From a virus: DNA of 45,034 nucleotides. The translations under genes were made by a program, and so were the position numbers. Under the pieces are notes generated by a model that saw nothing but the letters and a program-made list of their open reading frames with translations, ran no database searches and was not told the DNA's origin. Below, in pieces: positions 17,149 through 33,843 of the stretch; positions within the stretch are counted from its first letter, which is position 1, and the number at the start of each line of letters is the position of its first letter. The stretch lies in the IMG/VR virus record IMGVR_UViG_3300020202_000112, positions 1-45,034 of that record; one strand, given 5' to 3'.

Positions 17149-17352
17149 TCACTTCCAGACCTTTATTTGTGGCTCTTTGCCCTTCTCAGCGGCATAAAGC
17201 CTGCCGTCTGGCAGTTCCCAAGCATCAATCGTTGCGGTGTCTAGCTCTGGCCGCCGCAGCCACGCCAACTGATGGGGCCGACAGTCGATGATTGTTGGCT
17301 CTTCCCATTTGGTTGGGTCCAGCATCTTTGACCAAGAAACCGTTGCCATCAT
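17149..17352 (-). CDS. Small protein inserted after terminase
   Basis: A 67-residue product (MMATVSWSKMLDPTKWEEPT at the start, IKVWK at the end), Trp-rich. The start ATG overlaps the terminase stop as ATGA, which I prefer over an upstream in-frame ATG that lies within terminase. The gene is flanked on both sides by the 47-bp repeat and ends at the edge of copy 1, so it appears to be a mobile or recombined cassette. Function unknown. Confidence 0.65.
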   Translation of the reverse strand: MMATVSWSKMLDPTKWEEPTIIDCRPHQLAWLRRPELDTATIDAWELPDGRLYAAEKGKEPQIKVWK

Positions 17353-18665
17353 GCGCTCATGTATGATCCGACGCGATGCTGTCTGTCGCGCCATCTGCGT
17401 CCGCTGTAGCGGGGAATATCGGGCGGTATTGCTGCTTCGGGCTCTATGCCCATAGCGAGATAGCGAAATGCATCCGCGTCATGGGAAGCCCAGTCATGCA
17501 GAGGCGTCGGCTTGAAGGTCCGCTTGTTCTCGTCGTATTCGCGGCGATACTGCTTCAGAGCCTCCAAGCCGCCCTTGCACGGTTCCTTATTGAATCGGCA
17601 AGTCGGTAGTATGATGCGAACCGCGTTGATGCCGTCCTGCACGGGAACAGGAGGAAGAACCTTCCAGTCCCAGTTCGGCGCCATTGTGCGCAGCGAATCT
17701 AACCTGTTCCTTGCGTTTACCCAGCCATCAGCCCGGTTCACGTCGTGCGGCAGAATATGGGTGGCGTAGGTGTAAGGCTTGCTCTTGAGCACTCCGACAT
17801 AATGGGAGGCTTCCTGGCCGCGGGTAGCGTAATGGTCGATGATGTTCAGCCAGCCCGCATGCCGCTGGGCGAACCAGATTGAGGTCTCATCCTTTGTCGT
17901 GCCAATGTCCCAGCCGGTGAAGACTGGAAGGCTCGGATTGTGCGGAAATGACCCTATTCTCCCGTCACGCTCTGCCGTTTCCAGCAAGAGGCCGTAATAG
18001 GCACCTTCGATAGCGGCTTCAAAGCTGCATTCATATTCCTGCGCATATTGCGCCTCGCTCATGAGCTTCTGAGCGCTGAGCAATTCTTCGGGGGCGACGA
18101 GCTGAGTTTCAGAAGCCCTGAGCATGAGTGCAAACCACTCAGGGTCCGTCTTGGCTTGCTCGTAAATGTCGTAAAACTCGTTATGCCCCTTCGGCGTCCC
18201 GATGATGGTTAGCTTGCCTTGACGATCTGAAAGTGCTGGTCGGATAACTTCGGGTAGGAACCTTGGCCGCATGTCTGCGTATTCGTCCAACACGCAGTCG
18301 TCCAAGTAGATGCCTCTGAGCGCGTCCGGGTTATCAGCGCCGTAAAGTCGAAAACGTCCCCCGTTAGGAAAGTCGATTCTAAGCTCTGACTCGTTTGCGG
18401 TAGCCCCCGGAACTGCCAAGCCGTATTCTTTGGCATACGACCAGGCGACATCTTTAGCCTGCTTATGCAGTGGAGCGATGTAAGCCGTTCGCGGATTAGG
18501 GCGCGGGCAACTGAGAGCCGATCGGATCTGCTCATTGACTGTCGCTACCGTCTTCCCTGCCCTGCGATGGGCTACAATGACGCGCCAGCGCTTCTCCGTT
18601 TCATGATACCCAAGGAACTGCCGGCGAGGAGCGTAAGGAATTACGACTCGCTGGGTTTCAGCCAT
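17349..18665 (-). CDS. terL: Terminase large subunit
   Basis: A 438-residue product. Walker A is in VAHRRAGKT (residues 31-39), Walker B in CVLDEYADM with D127/E128, and a coupling motif in IIGTPKG (about 154-160). The nuclease half has GWDIGTTKDETS with D253 and a late acidic site HDADAFRYL. All parts of a packaging ATPase and headful or site nuclease are present. It is preceded by the small terminase gene, overlapping by 25 nt. The last codons are duplicated downstream (47-bp repeat). Confidence 0.95.
   Translation of the reverse strand: MAETQRVVIPYAPRRQFLGYHETEKRWRVIVAHRRAGKTVATVNEQIRSALSCPRPNPRTAYIAPLHKQAKDVAWSYAKEYGLAVPGATANESELRIDFPNGGRFRLYGADNPDALRGIYLDDCVLDEYADMRPRFLPEVIRPALSDRQGKLTIIGTPKGHNEFYDIYEQAKTDPEWFALMLRASETQLVAPEELLSAQKLMSEAQYAQEYECSFEAAIEGAYYGLLLETAERDGRIGSFPHNPSLPVFTGWDIGTTKDETSIWFAQRHAGWLNIIDHYATRGQEASHYVGVLKSKPYTYATHILPHDVNRADGWVNARNRLDSLRTMAPNWDWKVLPPVPVQDGINAVRIILPTCRFNKEPCKGGLEALKQYRREYDENKRTFKPTPLHDWASHDADAFRYLAMGIEPEAAIPPDIPRYSGRRWRDRQHRVGSYMSA
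17351..17397. repeat. 47-bp exact repeat, copy 2 (functional terminase 3' end)
   Basis: This copy encodes the last residues of the large terminase. With copy 1 it flanks a small gene, so homologous recombination between the copies would delete exactly one 249-bp unit and leave the terminase intact. Confidence 0.93.
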
Positions 18666-18922
18666 TCAAAGGTGACTTTCAATGGGCGCTCAGGATCAGA
18701 GCCGAGATTGACGTCCTTTGGCACCAAATCCGCCACGATCTTCATGTAGGTTTCGGGCTTGGTGGCGCGCACCGTTTGGATGACCGTCTCGCCATTGGCC
18801 TCGAAATCACTCGCAAGGGCCTTCAAGAAGTCTTCGGCTATCTTGTTCTTGGAGCCAGGTGGCCGGCCAGGACCACCGTTATTTCCCGTTAGAAAACGGC
18901 CCTTGTCGTCTTTCGCTGGCAT
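18641..18922 (-). CDS. terS: Terminase small subunit, DUF5681 type
   Basis: A 93-residue product with the DUF5681 start (GRFLTGNNGGPGRPPGSKNK) and a helical body (IAEDFLKALASDFEANGETV). Proteins of this family lie next to large terminases and probably bind the packaging site. The ATG at 18922 shares a base with the upstream stop (TGATG). A GTG one codon earlier is possible. It overlaps the large subunit gene by 25 nt. Confidence 0.8.
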   Translation of the reverse strand: MPAKDDKGRFLTGNNGGPGRPPGSKNKIAEDFLKALASDFEANGETVIQTVRATKPETYMKIVADLVPKDVNLGSDPERPLKVTFEWLKPSES

Positions 18923-19086
18923 CACTTCCCGTGCGAGCTTTTCGGATCGCCCTCGCGACGGGTGCCGCTCTTTTTGCCATCGGAATAGCCGACCTTGATG
19001 GAAGGCGCGGCTGTCTTGGAGGTGGAATTGCCAATTGAGTACTTAGTGGACATGCCGCCCTTGTTGCCGGCTGAATAACCAGTCAT
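18922..19086 (-). CDS. Short leader gene of the late operon
   Basis: A 54-residue, Gly/Ser/Lys-rich, basic product (MTGYSAGNKGGMSTKYSIGN at the start) preceded by AAAGGAACC. It is the first gene after the leader terminator and is coupled to the small terminase gene (TGATG). Low complexity makes a folded domain unlikely. It may bind DNA or be packaged. Not recognised. Confidence 0.6.
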   Translation of the reverse strand: MTGYSAGNKGGMSTKYSIGNSTSKTAAPSIKVGYSDGKKSGTRREGDPKSSHGK

Positions 19087-19108: not shown

Positions 19109-19140
19109 AAAAAACCCGGCAGCCGTGGGCGGGCTCCGGG
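19109..19140 (-). terminator. Leader terminator in front of the late operon
   Basis: On the minus strand CCCGG-AGCC, a 7-nt loop, GGCT-G-CCGGG form a stem with one bulged G, followed directly by TTTTTT. It sits about 20 bp downstream of the predicted start of transcription from the promoter at 19164-19192 and before the first late gene. That is the arrangement of a late promoter controlled by antitermination. Confidence 0.8.
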
Positions 19141-19163
19141 CGGAAAATCGGTAACTGCATTAC

Positions 19164-19192
19164 GACATACCCTAACCCGGTTTAGGTGTCAA
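19164..19192 (-). promoter_or_regulatory. Predicted late promoter with palindromic operator in the spacer
   Basis: The minus strand has a perfect -35 (TTGACA, 19187-19192), a 17-bp spacer and a weak -10 (TATGTC, 19164-19169). The spacer contains the near-palindrome CCTAAACCGGGTTAGG (19171-19186), 7 of 8 half-site positions matching. The operator fills the spacer, so a bound regulator would block or remodel polymerase here. A weak -10 with a strong -35 fits an activated promoter. Confidence 0.62.
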
Positions 19193-19197
19193 GGGGG

Positions 19198-19467
19198 TCA
19201 GCCGAATATCTGTTTAAACAGGCTAACTTGCTCAAACGGAGCTGAGTGCGTTACGGCGCTGAGCGGGTCATCTGGCCTAGGTGGGCCGCCTGAAGCGTCG
19301 TCCATTTCCTTCTGAAGCTCGTAATATCGCTTTCTGGCCTTGTAGAAGGCAATATCAGCGGCTTCCTGTTCTTCCCGCGTTCGGCCATGTGCGTTTGCGG
19401 CCGCCAAGTTCATGTAGTACGCCTTGGCTGCCGCAAGCTCTGGCGCGATTTGTTCAATGGTCCTCAT
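19198..19467 (-). CDS. Small protein before the late promoter
   Basis: An 89-residue, helical, charged product (MRTIEQIAPELAAAKAYYMN at the start). Its ATG overlaps the upstream stop as ATGA. It is the last gene before the predicted late promoter. There is no recognisable domain. Confidence 0.68.
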   Translation of the reverse strand: MRTIEQIAPELAAAKAYYMNLAAANAHGRTREEQEAADIAFYKARKRYYELQKEMDDASGGPPRPDDPLSAVTHSAPFEQVSLFKQIFG

Positions 19468-20060
19468 GCTGCTCTCCTCTCCGCCACATGTGGCATCTTA
19501 TCATAAATCCGATTCAGGCCCTCTCGCAAAACGCCCATCTCTGCCGGGGTGAGCGGGAATAGCGTCTCGTCGCGCTCGCAGACGCACACCTGCCAGACGA
19601 TCTCAAGGGCGCTCGGCATCTTGCATTTGACGAGCTGGTAGTTGATGCGATCCACCTCTTTGAGGGCGTCCAGGTAGAGATAGGCCTTGGCTTGGCCGAT
19701 GACAGGCTTGTCTCCGCCCCTGCCCCGAACACGGTTCGGATCAAGAGCGACCGGCGTCGGGCTTCCCAGCCCCGCTGAGAGCATGAATACCCGCATGGTC
19801 TCTGCGAAGTCGTTGCCAGCCATCAGGAAGTGCATGGCCTGCTGTTTGTTGGCCCCCTTGTAATCGGGCACCAGAGAGCGGATGAGGCGCCCCAAGGTGT
19901 ATCCCGCCTCCGTATGCTTGGCCTCGCCCTCGCTGACGCCGAACACCCGCTGGCGGGCTTCCAAGGCCACCTTGCGGGGATCTTCCTCCTTCTGGGGCTG
20001 TCGCTTGCGCCCATTGGGGTAGCGATTGCCGCCAGATTTGCGCCGTCCCGCTTTAGACAT
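19464..20060 (-). CDS. Basic helical protein, candidate late regulator
   Basis: A 198-residue product. The first 30 residues are strongly basic (MSKAGRRKSGGNRYPNGRKR), followed by helices with Lys/Arg/Glu and the pattern VCVCERDETLFPLTPAEMGV and a C-terminal LNRIYDKMP. No catalytic motif is visible. Phages with this gene order carry similar proteins just upstream of terminase. Because it is encoded immediately before a promoter-terminator leader of the late operon, it is a good candidate for an antiterminator or late activator, but this is inference from position. Confidence 0.6.
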   Translation of the reverse strand: MSKAGRRKSGGNRYPNGRKRQPQKEEDPRKVALEARQRVFGVSEGEAKHTEAGYTLGRLIRSLVPDYKGANKQQAMHFLMAGNDFAETMRVFMLSAGLGSPTPVALDPNRVRGRGGDKPVIGQAKAYLYLDALKEVDRINYQLVKCKMPSALEIVWQVCVCERDETLFPLTPAEMGVLREGLNRIYDKMPHVAERRAA

Positions 20061-21115: not shown

Positions 21116-21655
21116 TTAGGCGGCTTGGGATGGCTCTAGGACACGCGCTCGCACTGGTTTCTTCGCCGGCCAGATAGACGTTGCCGGCCTAACAATTGGC
21201 TTCCCGAGCAGCTTGCGAATGTATGCCTTGACCTGCGGCGTCGGCCGGAACCATTCGCCGTGAATGCTCCAGGGCGTCAGGTCATGCTTGACCTTCAGCT
21301 CCAATTCGTAGCCACCGCTGACAGTCCCGAGCGTTTTGATGATGTGCGGGCAGTTGAGCTGAATCTGGTTCATCCGCTGGCGCATGTTTGAGAAAACCAC
21401 GCCAACCTTGATCGGGCCATCGGGCACACACTGGACGAAATAAACCCGAGCCTCATGTCCGCGCTGGCGAAGATCGGAGACCTTCACGGCCCCGCTGGAA
21501 ATCGTCTCAATGCGCTTCGCCAGTTCCGGCCCGGCAAGCTGATAGCCCTGCTCAATGCGCGACACACTGCCGGCGCTCGTGCCTAGTATTTTCGCCAGCT
21601 CACGGTGCGAGCAATTGCAACGCAAACGCCAAGCCTTCAAAGGGTGTTCGGTCAT
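21116..21655 (-). CDS. HTH-XRE / GIY-YIG-like fusion protein
   Basis: A 179-residue product. Residues about 5-58 form an XRE helix-turn-helix (HRELAKILGTSAGSVSRIEQ). Residues about 70-155 resemble a GIY-YIG nuclease of the T5orf172/MUG113 kind: VYFVQCVPDGPIKVGVVFSN, then an Arg-rich helix and a terminal GEWFRPTPQ. Here the canonical tyrosines are VYF and KVG, a pattern also seen in that subgroup. The C-terminus is basic. The fusion could tether a nuclease-like fold to an operator, either as a regulator or as a targeted endonuclease. It follows the DUF1376 gene in the same operon. Confidence 0.72.
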   Translation of the reverse strand: MTEHPLKAWRLRCNCSHRELAKILGTSAGSVSRIEQGYQLAGPELAKRIETISSGAVKVSDLRQRGHEARVYFVQCVPDGPIKVGVVFSNMRQRMNQIQLNCPHIIKTLGTVSGGYELELKVKHDLTPWSIHGEWFRPTPQVKAYIRKLLGKPIVRPATSIWPAKKPVRARVLEPSQAA

Positions 21656-21657
21656 GC

Positions 21658-22173
21658 CTAACCTCTCGCCTTCATCAAGGGGGTTTCCAGCAGGTGCGTC
21701 ACGTCTCGTTCCTCGGCAACCTGTAGGGAAGAAGGTTTATTCTTATTTGTGACTATGGCATCGTGCGGCGCTGCTCTGGGCATGCTTGGTGCATGCGTGT
21801 TGCTCGCTTGAAGCAAGCGCCTTTTACCCCACAACTCATTTGCCGCCTTCCGAGCCTTCTCAGTCTGTCGAGCACTGTTCTCGACTGCGATATTCATCTC
21901 GACCTGGAGCCGCTTCTGGGTGATGAGGCGCTGCCCTTCTGAGCCATAGATGGTCAGATATGGCGATAGGGCCTCCTTGTAGCGCAACCAATTGCGGCGG
22001 CTTACGCCAAGACGTCGGGCGTTCTTAGCGTCGTCGTCGGGCAGCGTCCCGCCCGCCTGCCACATGTGCAGAAGCACGAGCAGATATGCGCCGTGCTCTT
22101 CCACGGACAGATCCGACGTGTCCTTGAGATAGTCGCCGGGCCAGAAGCGCATGAATGGAAGGGCCTTGCTCAC
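21658..22173 (-). CDS. DUF1376 protein, probable replication-associated
   Basis: A 171-residue product with the signature FWPGDYLKDTSDLSVEEHGA followed by YLLVLLHMW, diagnostic of DUF1376 (YdaU-like). Members occur at the position of replication-initiator genes in temperate phages. There is a winged-helix-type stretch (NARRLGVSRRNWLRYKEALS), and the C-terminal 45 residues are low-complexity. It is the only candidate replication protein here. Confidence 0.82.
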   Translation of the reverse strand: MSKALPFMRFWPGDYLKDTSDLSVEEHGAYLLVLLHMWQAGGTLPDDDAKNARRLGVSRRNWLRYKEALSPYLTIYGSEGQRLITQKRLQVEMNIAVENSARQTEKARKAANELWGKRRLLQASNTHAPSMPRAAPHDAIVTNKNKPSSLQVAEERDVTHLLETPLMKARG

Positions 22174-22625
22174 TGGAACGGAACCTCATACTTGGTGCGC
22201 TTCATTCCCCGGGGCAGATAGGCTCTGACCGCATGACCCTCGCAGTAAGGAGAGCCGTCGCCTGGCGTCCTGTTGCAAAAACGATGTGGCCCTTCTTGCG
22301 TGACTGGCCATTTACAGCCCGTACGCTCATCGAAGGGAACAGAGCCTTCCAGGGTATCTGCAAGCGGCTTAGGCTTTGGCCTCGAATAGACGAGCTTGAT
22401 TATCCGCTCTCTCGGCCGGCGTGACGGTATGCGGGTGCCTTTCGGGCGCTCATGCTCCTTGAGATTGATGCCCTTCTGTCTCAGCCTGTGGGCACGGCCT
22501 ATGACCGAATTGCGCGTAACAGTGCCGCCGATTGCCGCCGCAATAGTGCTCGCTGACTTACCCTCTTCCCATAGCTTGATGAGTGTTGCGTCCTGATCGA
22601 CAGTCCATGAGAGCTTGGCCATCAT
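22170..22625 (-). CDS. gcrA: GcrA-family cell-cycle transcription regulator
   Basis: A 151-residue product. It has the GcrA N-terminal DNA-binding pattern (LSWTVDQDATLIKLWEEGKS, then VTRNSVIGRAHRL) and the C-terminal sigma-binding-type Cys motif (GCKWPVTQ, FCNRTPGDGSPYCEGH). In Caulobacter, GcrA binds sigma-70 and responds to methylated GANTC sites to drive S-phase genes. The phage copy is complete and coupled by ATGA to its neighbours. It sits in an operon with an adenine methyltransferase-like gene, which fits a role in adjusting host cell-cycle transcription or linking phage transcription to methylation. Confidence 0.88.
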   Translation of the reverse strand: MMAKLSWTVDQDATLIKLWEEGKSASTIAAAIGGTVTRNSVIGRAHRLRQKGINLKEHERPKGTRIPSRRPRERIIKLVYSRPKPKPLADTLEGSVPFDERTGCKWPVTQEGPHRFCNRTPGDGSPYCEGHAVRAYLPRGMKRTKYEVPFQ

Positions 22626-25915: not shown

Positions 25916-26199
25916 GCTTGCCTCATCACAGGAAATGTTGAGGGCGATGAAAGTGGGGAGGCGTGGCTAAAGCTGCCATGCGCCTCCCCGTCTGGCGTCC
26001 GCCCGCCAGGTAGCCTACTCGCAACACCAGCCCGGTCGTTGTTCTGTCTTACGGAGGCGTCTGTGCCTCCAGCGTTTCCGGGTTCGACTCTAGTTGCTTT
26101 CGCTTCGGGATTGAGCGAGGGCGGATCTGTTTCGGGGATGGTGGGGAGTGATCCGCCCTCTTCCGCCTGGGGTGGGGCGGAAATTGTGTTGTTGCTCAT
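25912..26199 (-). CDS. Low-complexity protein downstream of the HTH repressor
   Basis: A 95-residue product rich in Pro, Ser, Gly and Glu (MSNNTISAPPQAEEGGSLPT at the start), with no folded domain visible. Support comes from ATGA couplings at both ends. It could be an antirepressor-like or disordered modulator. This is speculation. Confidence 0.5.
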   Translation of the reverse strand: MSNNTISAPPQAEEGGSLPTIPETDPPSLNPEAKATRVEPGNAGGTDASVRQNNDRAGVASRLPGGRTPDGEAHGSFSHASPLSSPSTFPVMRQA

Positions 26200-26411
26200 G
26201 CGGCACCGCGCATGCGCCAGAGATGGTCGGGGGCTTCGATGCCTTCCTTTTCGAGGAGGTCGCGGAGCGCGATATAGGTATGGGCCGGGAACTTCCCCTT
26301 GACGCGCCAATGACTGATGACTTGCGGTCGGACGCCGATCTTCTGCGCTGCCGCAGATGTCCCACCAAGGGCGTCGATTACATCGCTGGTGGAGTCAAAG
26401 GAGGATTGCAT
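26196..26411 (-). CDS. Cro/YdaS-like HTH regulator, candidate repressor
   Basis: A 71-residue product with one helix-turn-helix (GGTSAAAQKIGVRPQVISHW, residues about 16-35) and a short helical tail, the size of Cro or YdaS-type proteins. It lacks any dimerisation or LexA-like protease domain. Its promoter (TTGCCA, 17 bp, TATATT at 26418-26446) carries an operator in the spacer, so it is probably autoregulated. The -10 lies 6 bp from the ATG, so the transcript would be leaderless. It heads the leftward operon. Confidence 0.8.
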   Translation of the reverse strand: MQSSFDSTSDVIDALGGTSAAAQKIGVRPQVISHWRVKGKFPAHTYIALRDLLEKEGIEAPDHLWRMRGAA

Positions 26412-32356: not shown

Positions 32357-32740
32357 ATGAGCGAGATTCCGGTAGGGATGGATGAAGCGGCCCGGCATCT
32401 TGGCATGTCGCGCCGGACCTTGACGGAAGTGCTCAAGAGGCATCCATACTATACGCGGGGCGGCCGGGCGAACGTGTTCTATGCCGCTGATCTTGCCAAG
32501 CTGCGGCATGCCCTGAGGGAGGAAACATGGCAGAAGGCAAATTGTATACCCTCTACCGCCGAGCTGGCAGCCCCAATTGGTGGTTTCACACAAAGCCTCC
32601 CGGCTTTAAGCGAATCCGACGAAGTACTCGCCTATCTGATCGCAAAAAAGCAAAAGAAGTCGCGCAGCGGATCGCGGCCAAGCTCTGGAAACGTTATACC
32701 GATGGCGAGCAAGTCTCGCTCACATTCTCAGAGGCAGTGA
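32357..32740 (+). CDS. Excisionase-like HTH protein overlapping integrase
   Basis: A 127-residue product. Residues 5-55 are a MerR/AlpA-like HTH (MDEAARHLGMSRRTLTEVLK, then YYTRGGRANVFYAADLAKL), the usual form of recombination directionality factors. The C-terminal 70 residues, rich in Ser, Arg and Lys, are encoded over the first 214 nt of the integrase in another frame. Comparable HTH genes with a Ser/Arg tail overlapping integrase are common in this kind of phage, so the overlap is probably genuine. Confidence 0.68.
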   Translation: MSEIPVGMDEAARHLGMSRRTLTEVLKRHPYYTRGGRANVFYAADLAKLRHALREETWQKANCIPSTAELAAPIGGFTQSLPALSESDEVLAYLIAKKQKKSRSGSRPSSGNVIPMASKSRSHSQRQ

Positions 32741-33591
32741 TGCTGTACGAGGGGGCGGGAAAGCCGGACACCTATCTGATCCCGCTCACGCGCCATTTCA
32801 GCGGGCGTAAGGTCGTCTCAATTACTGCTGGCGAGATCAGGGCAGCGGCGCAGGAACTGTATCCCGGCGCGTCTCCGGCGACATGGAACCGGCAGGGCAT
32901 CGTCCCGGCGCGGGCCGTCATCAACCACTGTGCCGAGTTGGGCAAGTGTCCTTATATCAAGGTGAAGCTGTTCAAGGAGTCCCCGCCTGCCAAGCGCGCC
33001 GTGAACGAGGCGTGGGTGAAAGCCTTCGTCGCCAATGCCGAGAACCCGCGTATTGCGGCAATCGAGTTCATGATGTGGATTACGGGCGCCCGGATCAGCC
33101 AAGTTCTTTCCCTGACATGGGAGGATGACATTCGCCTGAATGAGGCTATGGCGAAGATCCCGGCGGCCAAGGGCTTCCCCGAGCGATGGGCGCATTTGAC
33201 GCCAGAGATGGTCGCAATGCTGGCGAACCTCAACAGCAAGCGCGACAAGGACGGCAACCGCGTTGGCTTGGTCTTTGACTACGCCCACCGCTGGTCGATC
33301 TACAAGCCGTGGCGGGCCACATGCGAGCGAGCGGGCATTCCCTATATCCAGCCGCACCAAGCCGGCCGACATTCATTCTTCACTGAGACGATTGCCCGGA
33401 ACAAGGTTGACGCGAGCACGGCAGCGAAGCTCGGCGGCTCCAAGAGCCCGCATATCCTGTTCAAGACCTACGTTCACACTGAGGATGACACACGCTCTGT
33501 GATCGAAGATGTTTTTGGCACGAAACGGTCACAGCGGCCCAAAAATGCTAGCAAAAAATCGGCAAATATGGTAGGAAAGACAAATGCTTAA
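32527..33591 (+). CDS. int: Tyrosine integrase
   Basis: A 354-residue product. The catalytic set is visible: R189 (ITGARISQVLSL), K215, H277 and R281 (PHQAGRHS), H309 and the nucleophile Y315 (LFKTYVH). An N-terminal arm-binding part (residues 1-60) and a core-binding domain (61-165) precede it. Ribosome site GAGGAAAC. Partial tRNA-Thr sequence that should be attP lies 20 bp downstream, the normal int-attP arrangement. Confidence 0.93.
   Translation: MAEGKLYTLYRRAGSPNWWFHTKPPGFKRIRRSTRLSDRKKAKEVAQRIAAKLWKRYTDGEQVSLTFSEAVMLYEGAGKPDTYLIPLTRHFSGRKVVSITAGEIRAAAQELYPGASPATWNRQGIVPARAVINHCAELGKCPYIKVKLFKESPPAKRAVNEAWVKAFVANAENPRIAAIEFMMWITGARISQVLSLTWEDDIRLNEAMAKIPAAKGFPERWAHLTPEMVAMLANLNSKRDKDGNRVGLVFDYAHRWSIYKPWRATCERAGIPYIQPHQAGRHSFFTETIARNKVDASTAAKLGGSKSPHILFKTYVHTEDDTRSVIEDVFGTKRSQRPKNASKKSANMVGKTNA

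Positions 33592-33843
<252 letters not shown>

Follow-up and report, generated by a model that had tools for sequence, protein, structure and literature searches.

The window analysed here, i.e., the whole stretch of 45,034 nucleotides of IMG/VR virus record IMGVR_UViG_3300020202_000112, is a temperate phage with an integrase, an ERF recombinase and a podovirus-like terminase large subunit (TerL); Cro-like and GcrA-family genes are also encoded. Because GANTC sites are strongly depleted in the window (78 vs. approximately 199 expected) and the family of its 198-aa protein is found predominantly in Hyphomicrobiales (36 of 397 genomes vs. 2 of 385 in a class-wide sample), the host is taken to be an alphaproteobacterium and probably a member of the Hyphomicrobiales. 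The early operon, which ends with the genes for the 198-aa protein and an 89-aa open reading frame, lies upstream of a putative late switch on the same strand, and portal and major head protein genes follow downstream of TerL, again on that strand. The features of the region, in the direction of transcription, are:

22170-22625, minus strand: GcrA-family protein of the early operon (PF07750, E 2e-19, 70.7 bits against a cut-off of 26.9, residues 6-143)
21116-21655, minus strand: XRE-type helix-turn-helix protein; C-terminal half matches phrog_8130 and phrog_4284
19464-20060, minus strand: 198-aa protein, candidate late antiterminator (phrog_15385 family; distant DUF6456 match)
19198-19467, minus strand: 89-aa open reading frame between the candidate antiterminator gene and the promoter
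19187-19192, minus strand: -35 element TTGACA; TTGAC occupies this position in family loci as well
19186-19170, minus strand: 17-nt spacer CCTAAACCGGGTTAGGG between TTGACA and TATGTC
19171-19186, minus strand: imperfect 16-bp palindrome CCTAAACCGGGTTAGG inside the spacer (7 of 8 pairs match), a candidate binding element
19164-19169, minus strand: -10-like element TATGTC, a poor match by E. coli standards
19109-19141, minus strand: intrinsic terminator in the late leader, from the fold (hairpin 19141-19114, T6 19114-19109)
18922-19086, minus strand: 54-aa open reading frame, the first late gene; also present in relatives L026, L027 and L031
18641-18925, minus strand: terminase small-subunit-like protein in the TerS position (weak DUF5681, phrog_8771)
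17349-18665, minus strand: TerL

All of the parts listed for this site in the preliminary description, namely TTGACA, a spacer, TATGTC and an intrinsic terminator with a T6 tail ahead of the first late gene, were found on the minus strand within 19109-19192. When the minus strand is folded, the hairpin at 19141-19114 has the arms GCCCGGAGCC and GGCT-G-CCGGGT with a loop between them and a predicted energy of -14.8 kcal/mol, and its T-run lies 78 nt after TTGAC; a ribosome-site-like AAGGAA and then the ATG at 19086 follow on the 3' side of T6. An element rule that required TTGAC and, 60-100 nt further on, a hairpin of -8 kcal/mol or lower with a T-run found a single occurrence on both strands of the 45-kb window, which is this site. 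A standard promoter and terminator scanner called neither at 19109-19192, which is attributed to a -10 hexamer that does not end in T and to a bulge in the stem. The alphaproteobacterial -10 consensus of the Caulobacter type is GCTANAWC, compared with TATAAT in E. coli, and GGTATGTC is closer to the former. With a start site approximately 7 bases past the -10, the terminated RNA would be approximately 45-50 nt long, and GTAATGCAG, directly 3' of the -10, could serve as a candidate -10-like pause element.

The window 198-aa protein matches phrog_15385, a family lacking an assigned function, over residues 6-60 only (E 5.5e-6, 27 bits); the same profile is matched by all 26 members of a diverse family alignment, with a best E of 7e-82. 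The N-terminus of the family is conserved and strongly basic (GRKRKxGxR). Homologues (orf198) occupy the same place in Rhizobium phages and Hyphomicrobiales prophages, where the candidate regulator gene is among the last of the early operon and 5' of the late genes, as it is in the window. Directly 3' of many family genes, a TTGAC promoter, a leader and then a G+C hairpin with a T-run are found, with the TGA stop of the family gene often located inside TTGACA.

The promoter and terminator layout beside the 198-aa family is conserved, beyond chance. Under the element rule, 22 of 66 family loci outside the Rhizobium cassettes (window included) carry the element within -40 to +460 of the orf198 stop, a count that represents fewer than 22 independent cases because some loci are related (e.g., L106/L109/L113 and L181/L182), and that was made after the layout had been spotted. 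Chance expectation was 0.3, calculated over 1.08 Mb of these loci, with none on the reverse strand; this background is overstated, since some of its matches (L115, L117, L144) lie 3' of a family gene and resemble true elements. By the same strict rule the element is missing in the other 44 loci, and it is missing in all 17 Rhizobium chromosomal cassettes. Only L195-L205, from two viral scans, were collected after the count, and in these later viral loci the automatic rule finds the element in 6 of 11 (L198 being a copy of L138), with TTGAC at the same place and a weaker terminator in most of the remainder. Across the family, the promoter-then-terminator order recurs with a TTGAC-to-terminator spacing of 69-96 nt, and late genes follow the element. 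In L115, whose protein is 41% identical to that of the window, genes intervene after orf198 and the element stands immediately before terS-terL, as in the window. A tandem pair of promoter-terminator elements was seen downstream of the candidate antiterminator gene in L181, L182 and L196.

At the nucleotide level, CCCGGAGC...GCTGCCGGG is common to the window terminator and those of L115, L182 and L196, and the window leader GTATGTCGTAATGCAG is similar to GAATGTCCGTAATGCAG of L169. Rfam gave no match at the 19109-19192 site. Viral contigs searched directly with the DNA of the element returned 0 matches, and megablast against phages likewise found no match to it: what is kept is the layout rather than the sequence.

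The preliminary description had also proposed a palindromic operator within the spacer. The palindrome is indeed present and its sequence is unique, nothing related to it recurring in the window, but it stands at chance level (p = 0.08 vs. shuffles of its own spacer) and is not kept in the loci whose proteins are closest to that of the window (L115, L182, L195, L196); it is also absent from relatives L002, L026, L027, L031 and L050. In total, 14 16-mers with 7 of 8 palindromic pairs occur in the window, as expected for 45 kb; given this chance-level frequency, the palindrome is therefore unfit to carry the argument. Spacer palindromes were additionally found in L169 (p 0.002) and L132 (p 0.018), and in none of the closest relatives. 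A different spacer motif, AAATCA, recurs in 14 of 38 family spacers (0 of 2,000 shuffles), with the enrichment confined to other subgroups and the motif absent in L115, L182, L195 and L196.

One member of the family marginally matched Pfam DUF6456 (PF20057). An hhalign comparison of the orf198 family with DUF6456, for which proteins were gathered by a genome profile search (among 14 control genomes only Caulobacter vibrioides matched), gave 95.7% with an E of 1e-8 over 110 columns, within an overall range of 93.6-96.5% that includes the phage-type members (95.6%) and the six-member window subfamily (93.6%). Controls, consisting of reversed DUF6456, 20 column-shuffled versions and five other families, reached at most 0.3%, and the Rhizobium group alone gave 1.9%. 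The common core reads LGRL..I...QYxAG. The Pfam DUF6456 model had no hit on the window 198-aa protein, the best family score being 17.9 bits and below the cut-off of 26.3, and the Pfam phage antiterminator models also had no hit on it. The two families thus appear to be related distantly, by profile-level homology at the superfamily level. We infer that GafZ carries DUF6456, because GafA homologues are so annotated (PMC9638019), GafZ is equivalent to the C-terminal portion of GafA (PMC11150451) and the model matches in Caulobacter. Caulobacter GafZ has been shown to be an antiterminator, with a near-perfect palindrome as its site between -10 and -35 (PMC11150451).

An AlphaFold2 model of the 198-aa protein, built with 17 sequences, is nearly all helical (pLDDT 77.8, pTM 0.67); an earlier AlphaFold model from a thin alignment (pLDDT 47) was set aside. 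With VIA-align, three entries of the phage-21 Q protein (Q21) ranked 1-3 of 351 chains over approximately 100 residues, at Z values of 5.3, 4.9 and 4.9 that exceed the next (3.5) and are below the level safe for helical proteins. Foldseek against the PDB gave no significant match to the model (best E 0.97), a viral fold search placed uncharacterised phage proteins on top with none at E < 0.001, and a PDB sequence search with the protein yielded chance-like hits only. The predicted placement of the fold near Q21 is suggestive only.

Several described systems have a comparable arrangement. Lambda Q, AlpA and GafZ each bind in the interval from -35 to -10, join polymerase at the promoter and escort it through terminators (PMC6606751, PMC7969949, PMC11150451), and the window palindrome occupies the same position as the lambda QBE, the AlpA ABE and the GafZ ZBE. 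The operator in the spacer had been presented as a departure from Q-type logic, a distinction that falls away since Q, AlpA and GafZ themselves have binding elements located in the -35 to -10 interval (PMC6606751, PMC7969949, PMC11150451). GafZ and GafA, the DUF6456 regulators of gene transfer agents (GTAs) in Caulobacter and Rhodobacter, resemble the 198-aa family in profile and are likewise alphaproteobacterial, whereas the 198-aa protein is phage-encoded, smaller, equipped with a basic N-terminal tail and below the Pfam cut-off; additionally, the window terminator is inside the leader and that of GafZ comes after the first gene. The lambdoid Q proteins (lambda Q, Q21) have, as in the window, their gene just before the late operon and a promoter followed by a leader terminator, with their own binding element between -35 and -10, and Q21 is ranked first by the predicted fold; in contrast, the 198-aa protein is without Pfam-detected sequence similarity to them and the Z values are only 4.9-5.3. 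AlpA of Pseudomonas aeruginosa has its element in that interval too, with an intrinsic terminator approximately 54 nt past the start (PMC7969949), and differs from the window protein in being a bacterial cell-lysis regulator.

Combined, the Q/AlpA/GafZ layout suggests that the 198-aa protein is a Q-type late antiterminator acting at this switch, a reading from sequence to which we assign a probability of roughly 70%. The preliminary description had put forward such a switch with the 198-aa protein as its regulator, a proposal supported by the layout beside the same gene family in many prophages and by the distant kinship to an antiterminator domain. Host RNA polymerase would start at TTGACA-17-TATGTC and, without help, would halt after approximately 45-50 nt at the leader terminator; the early operon would yield the 198-aa protein, which would load onto polymerase at this promoter and render it terminator-resistant, such that it could read through the terS, terL, portal and capsid genes. 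Promoter activity, termination, loading via the DNA between -35 and -10, and antitermination are each predicted from the arrangement of these elements.

A related arrangement is found in viral contigs L026, L027 and L031 (TerL approximately 70% identical), which have a NusG-like protein (PF02357, 1.5e-6 in L026) in the orf198 slot, followed by very similar late genes. The same slot in phiLM21 holds phiLM21_p034, annotated as a NusG-like antiterminator, and no locus was found with both a NusG-like and an orf198 protein. The NusG-like systems belong to an unrelated protein family, and their late leader, TTCCCGGCC...GCATTGCGT...GCCGGGA, is common to L026 (3752-3850), L027 (7250-7345) and L031 (7240-7330) and differs from the window leader; it might serve for recruitment, as RNA or as DNA. 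The simplest reading is that one antiterminator was swapped for another in this slot.

An alternative concerns how the 198-aa protein would be recruited. An antiterminator brought in by leader RNA in the manner of N, Put or LoaP, with its basic N-terminus binding the nascent leader, would agree with the conserved, strongly basic N-terminus, with a second small hairpin before the terminator in many leaders (e.g., TCAGACTATCGTCTGA) and with the conserved leader that relatives with the NusG-like protein have instead. However, the extra hairpin is weak in the window leader, the recurring AAATCA lies upstream of the start site, and the DUF6456-type GafZ loads at promoter DNA (PMC11150451); RNA recruitment is therefore considered unlikely, while retaining some weight. 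The site could also be a plain border between transcription units, where the terminator ends the early operon, the promoter is under ordinary control and their order is accidental. Every phage has an early-late border, and the site is the gap between both gene blocks; at such a border, however, the terminator is expected 5' of the promoter rather than approximately 16 nt past the start site, and both the promoter-then-terminator order and the 69-96 nt spacing are repeated throughout the family, making this explanation improbable.

Two further explanations assign control to other phage proteins, and both are judged to be very improbable. If the palindrome were the operator of a phage repressor, either the Cro-like protein (26196-26411) or the XRE-type protein (21116-21655), a protein bound between -35 and -10 would block polymerase and keep the late promoter silent until induction, and the phage does encode XRE/Cro-type proteins; the palindrome is nevertheless single and at chance level, and the leader terminator would be left unexplained. 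The product of 21116-21655 had also been named as a possible regulator of the site, a suggestion that gained no support: it is XRE-type, and nothing ties it to 19109-19192. By eye, its C-terminal half looks like a T5orf172/GIY-YIG-type domain.

GafZ acts with a partner, GafY, and the GcrA-family protein (22170-22625), whose gene was overlooked in the preliminary description, is a possible partner at the late promoter and a better candidate for this role than 21116-21655. The known GcrA target is GANTC, and control of the late promoter through GcrA and GANTC was rejected, as no GANTC occurs between 18649 and 19511. In the remaining rival explanation, the GcrA-family protein would be the main late activator, acting via sigma, and the 198-aa protein would have some different function; GcrA works as a cofactor of sigma-70 (PMC7403470), and GcrA-like genes neighbour orf198 homologues in the Rhizobium cassettes as well as in several prophages, yet many orf198 loci have no GcrA-like gene nearby and the GANTC target is missing as described. 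Searching phages by tblastn with the GcrA-like protein as a single query sequence gave no match.

To our knowledge, little has been established about how alphaproteobacterial phages control their late genes. Within the open-licence literature searched, no report was found of the family's role, of the cis layout in Hyphomicrobiales or of the link to GTA regulators; relative to that literature, antitermination of this kind is already known, and the role of the phage family, the cis layout and the GTA link are the new part. The chances appear evenly balanced that phrog_15385 comprises widespread alphaproteobacterial phage late antiterminators, with the DUF6456 GTA regulators as domesticated members of the same superfamily, loading between -35 and -10 like Q. 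If true, a function would be provided for a family present in 36 of 397 Hyphomicrobiales genomes, the late promoters of many such prophages would become predictable from sequence, and phage late control would be tied to the antiterminator in charge of gene transfer agents.

The Rhizobium chromosomal cassette (L007-L021, L023, L086, L087) is a conserved pairing of a GcrA-like gene with a 198-aa homologue; no obvious late phage genes and no promoter-terminator element were seen in the copies inspected, and these cassettes are perhaps domesticated. In the window itself, an Rfam tRNA match at 33594-33658 on the minus strand (30.7 bits, barely above threshold), where ARAGORN called no tRNA, lies directly after the integrase gene (32527-33591); this tRNA-like match is possibly the attachment site.
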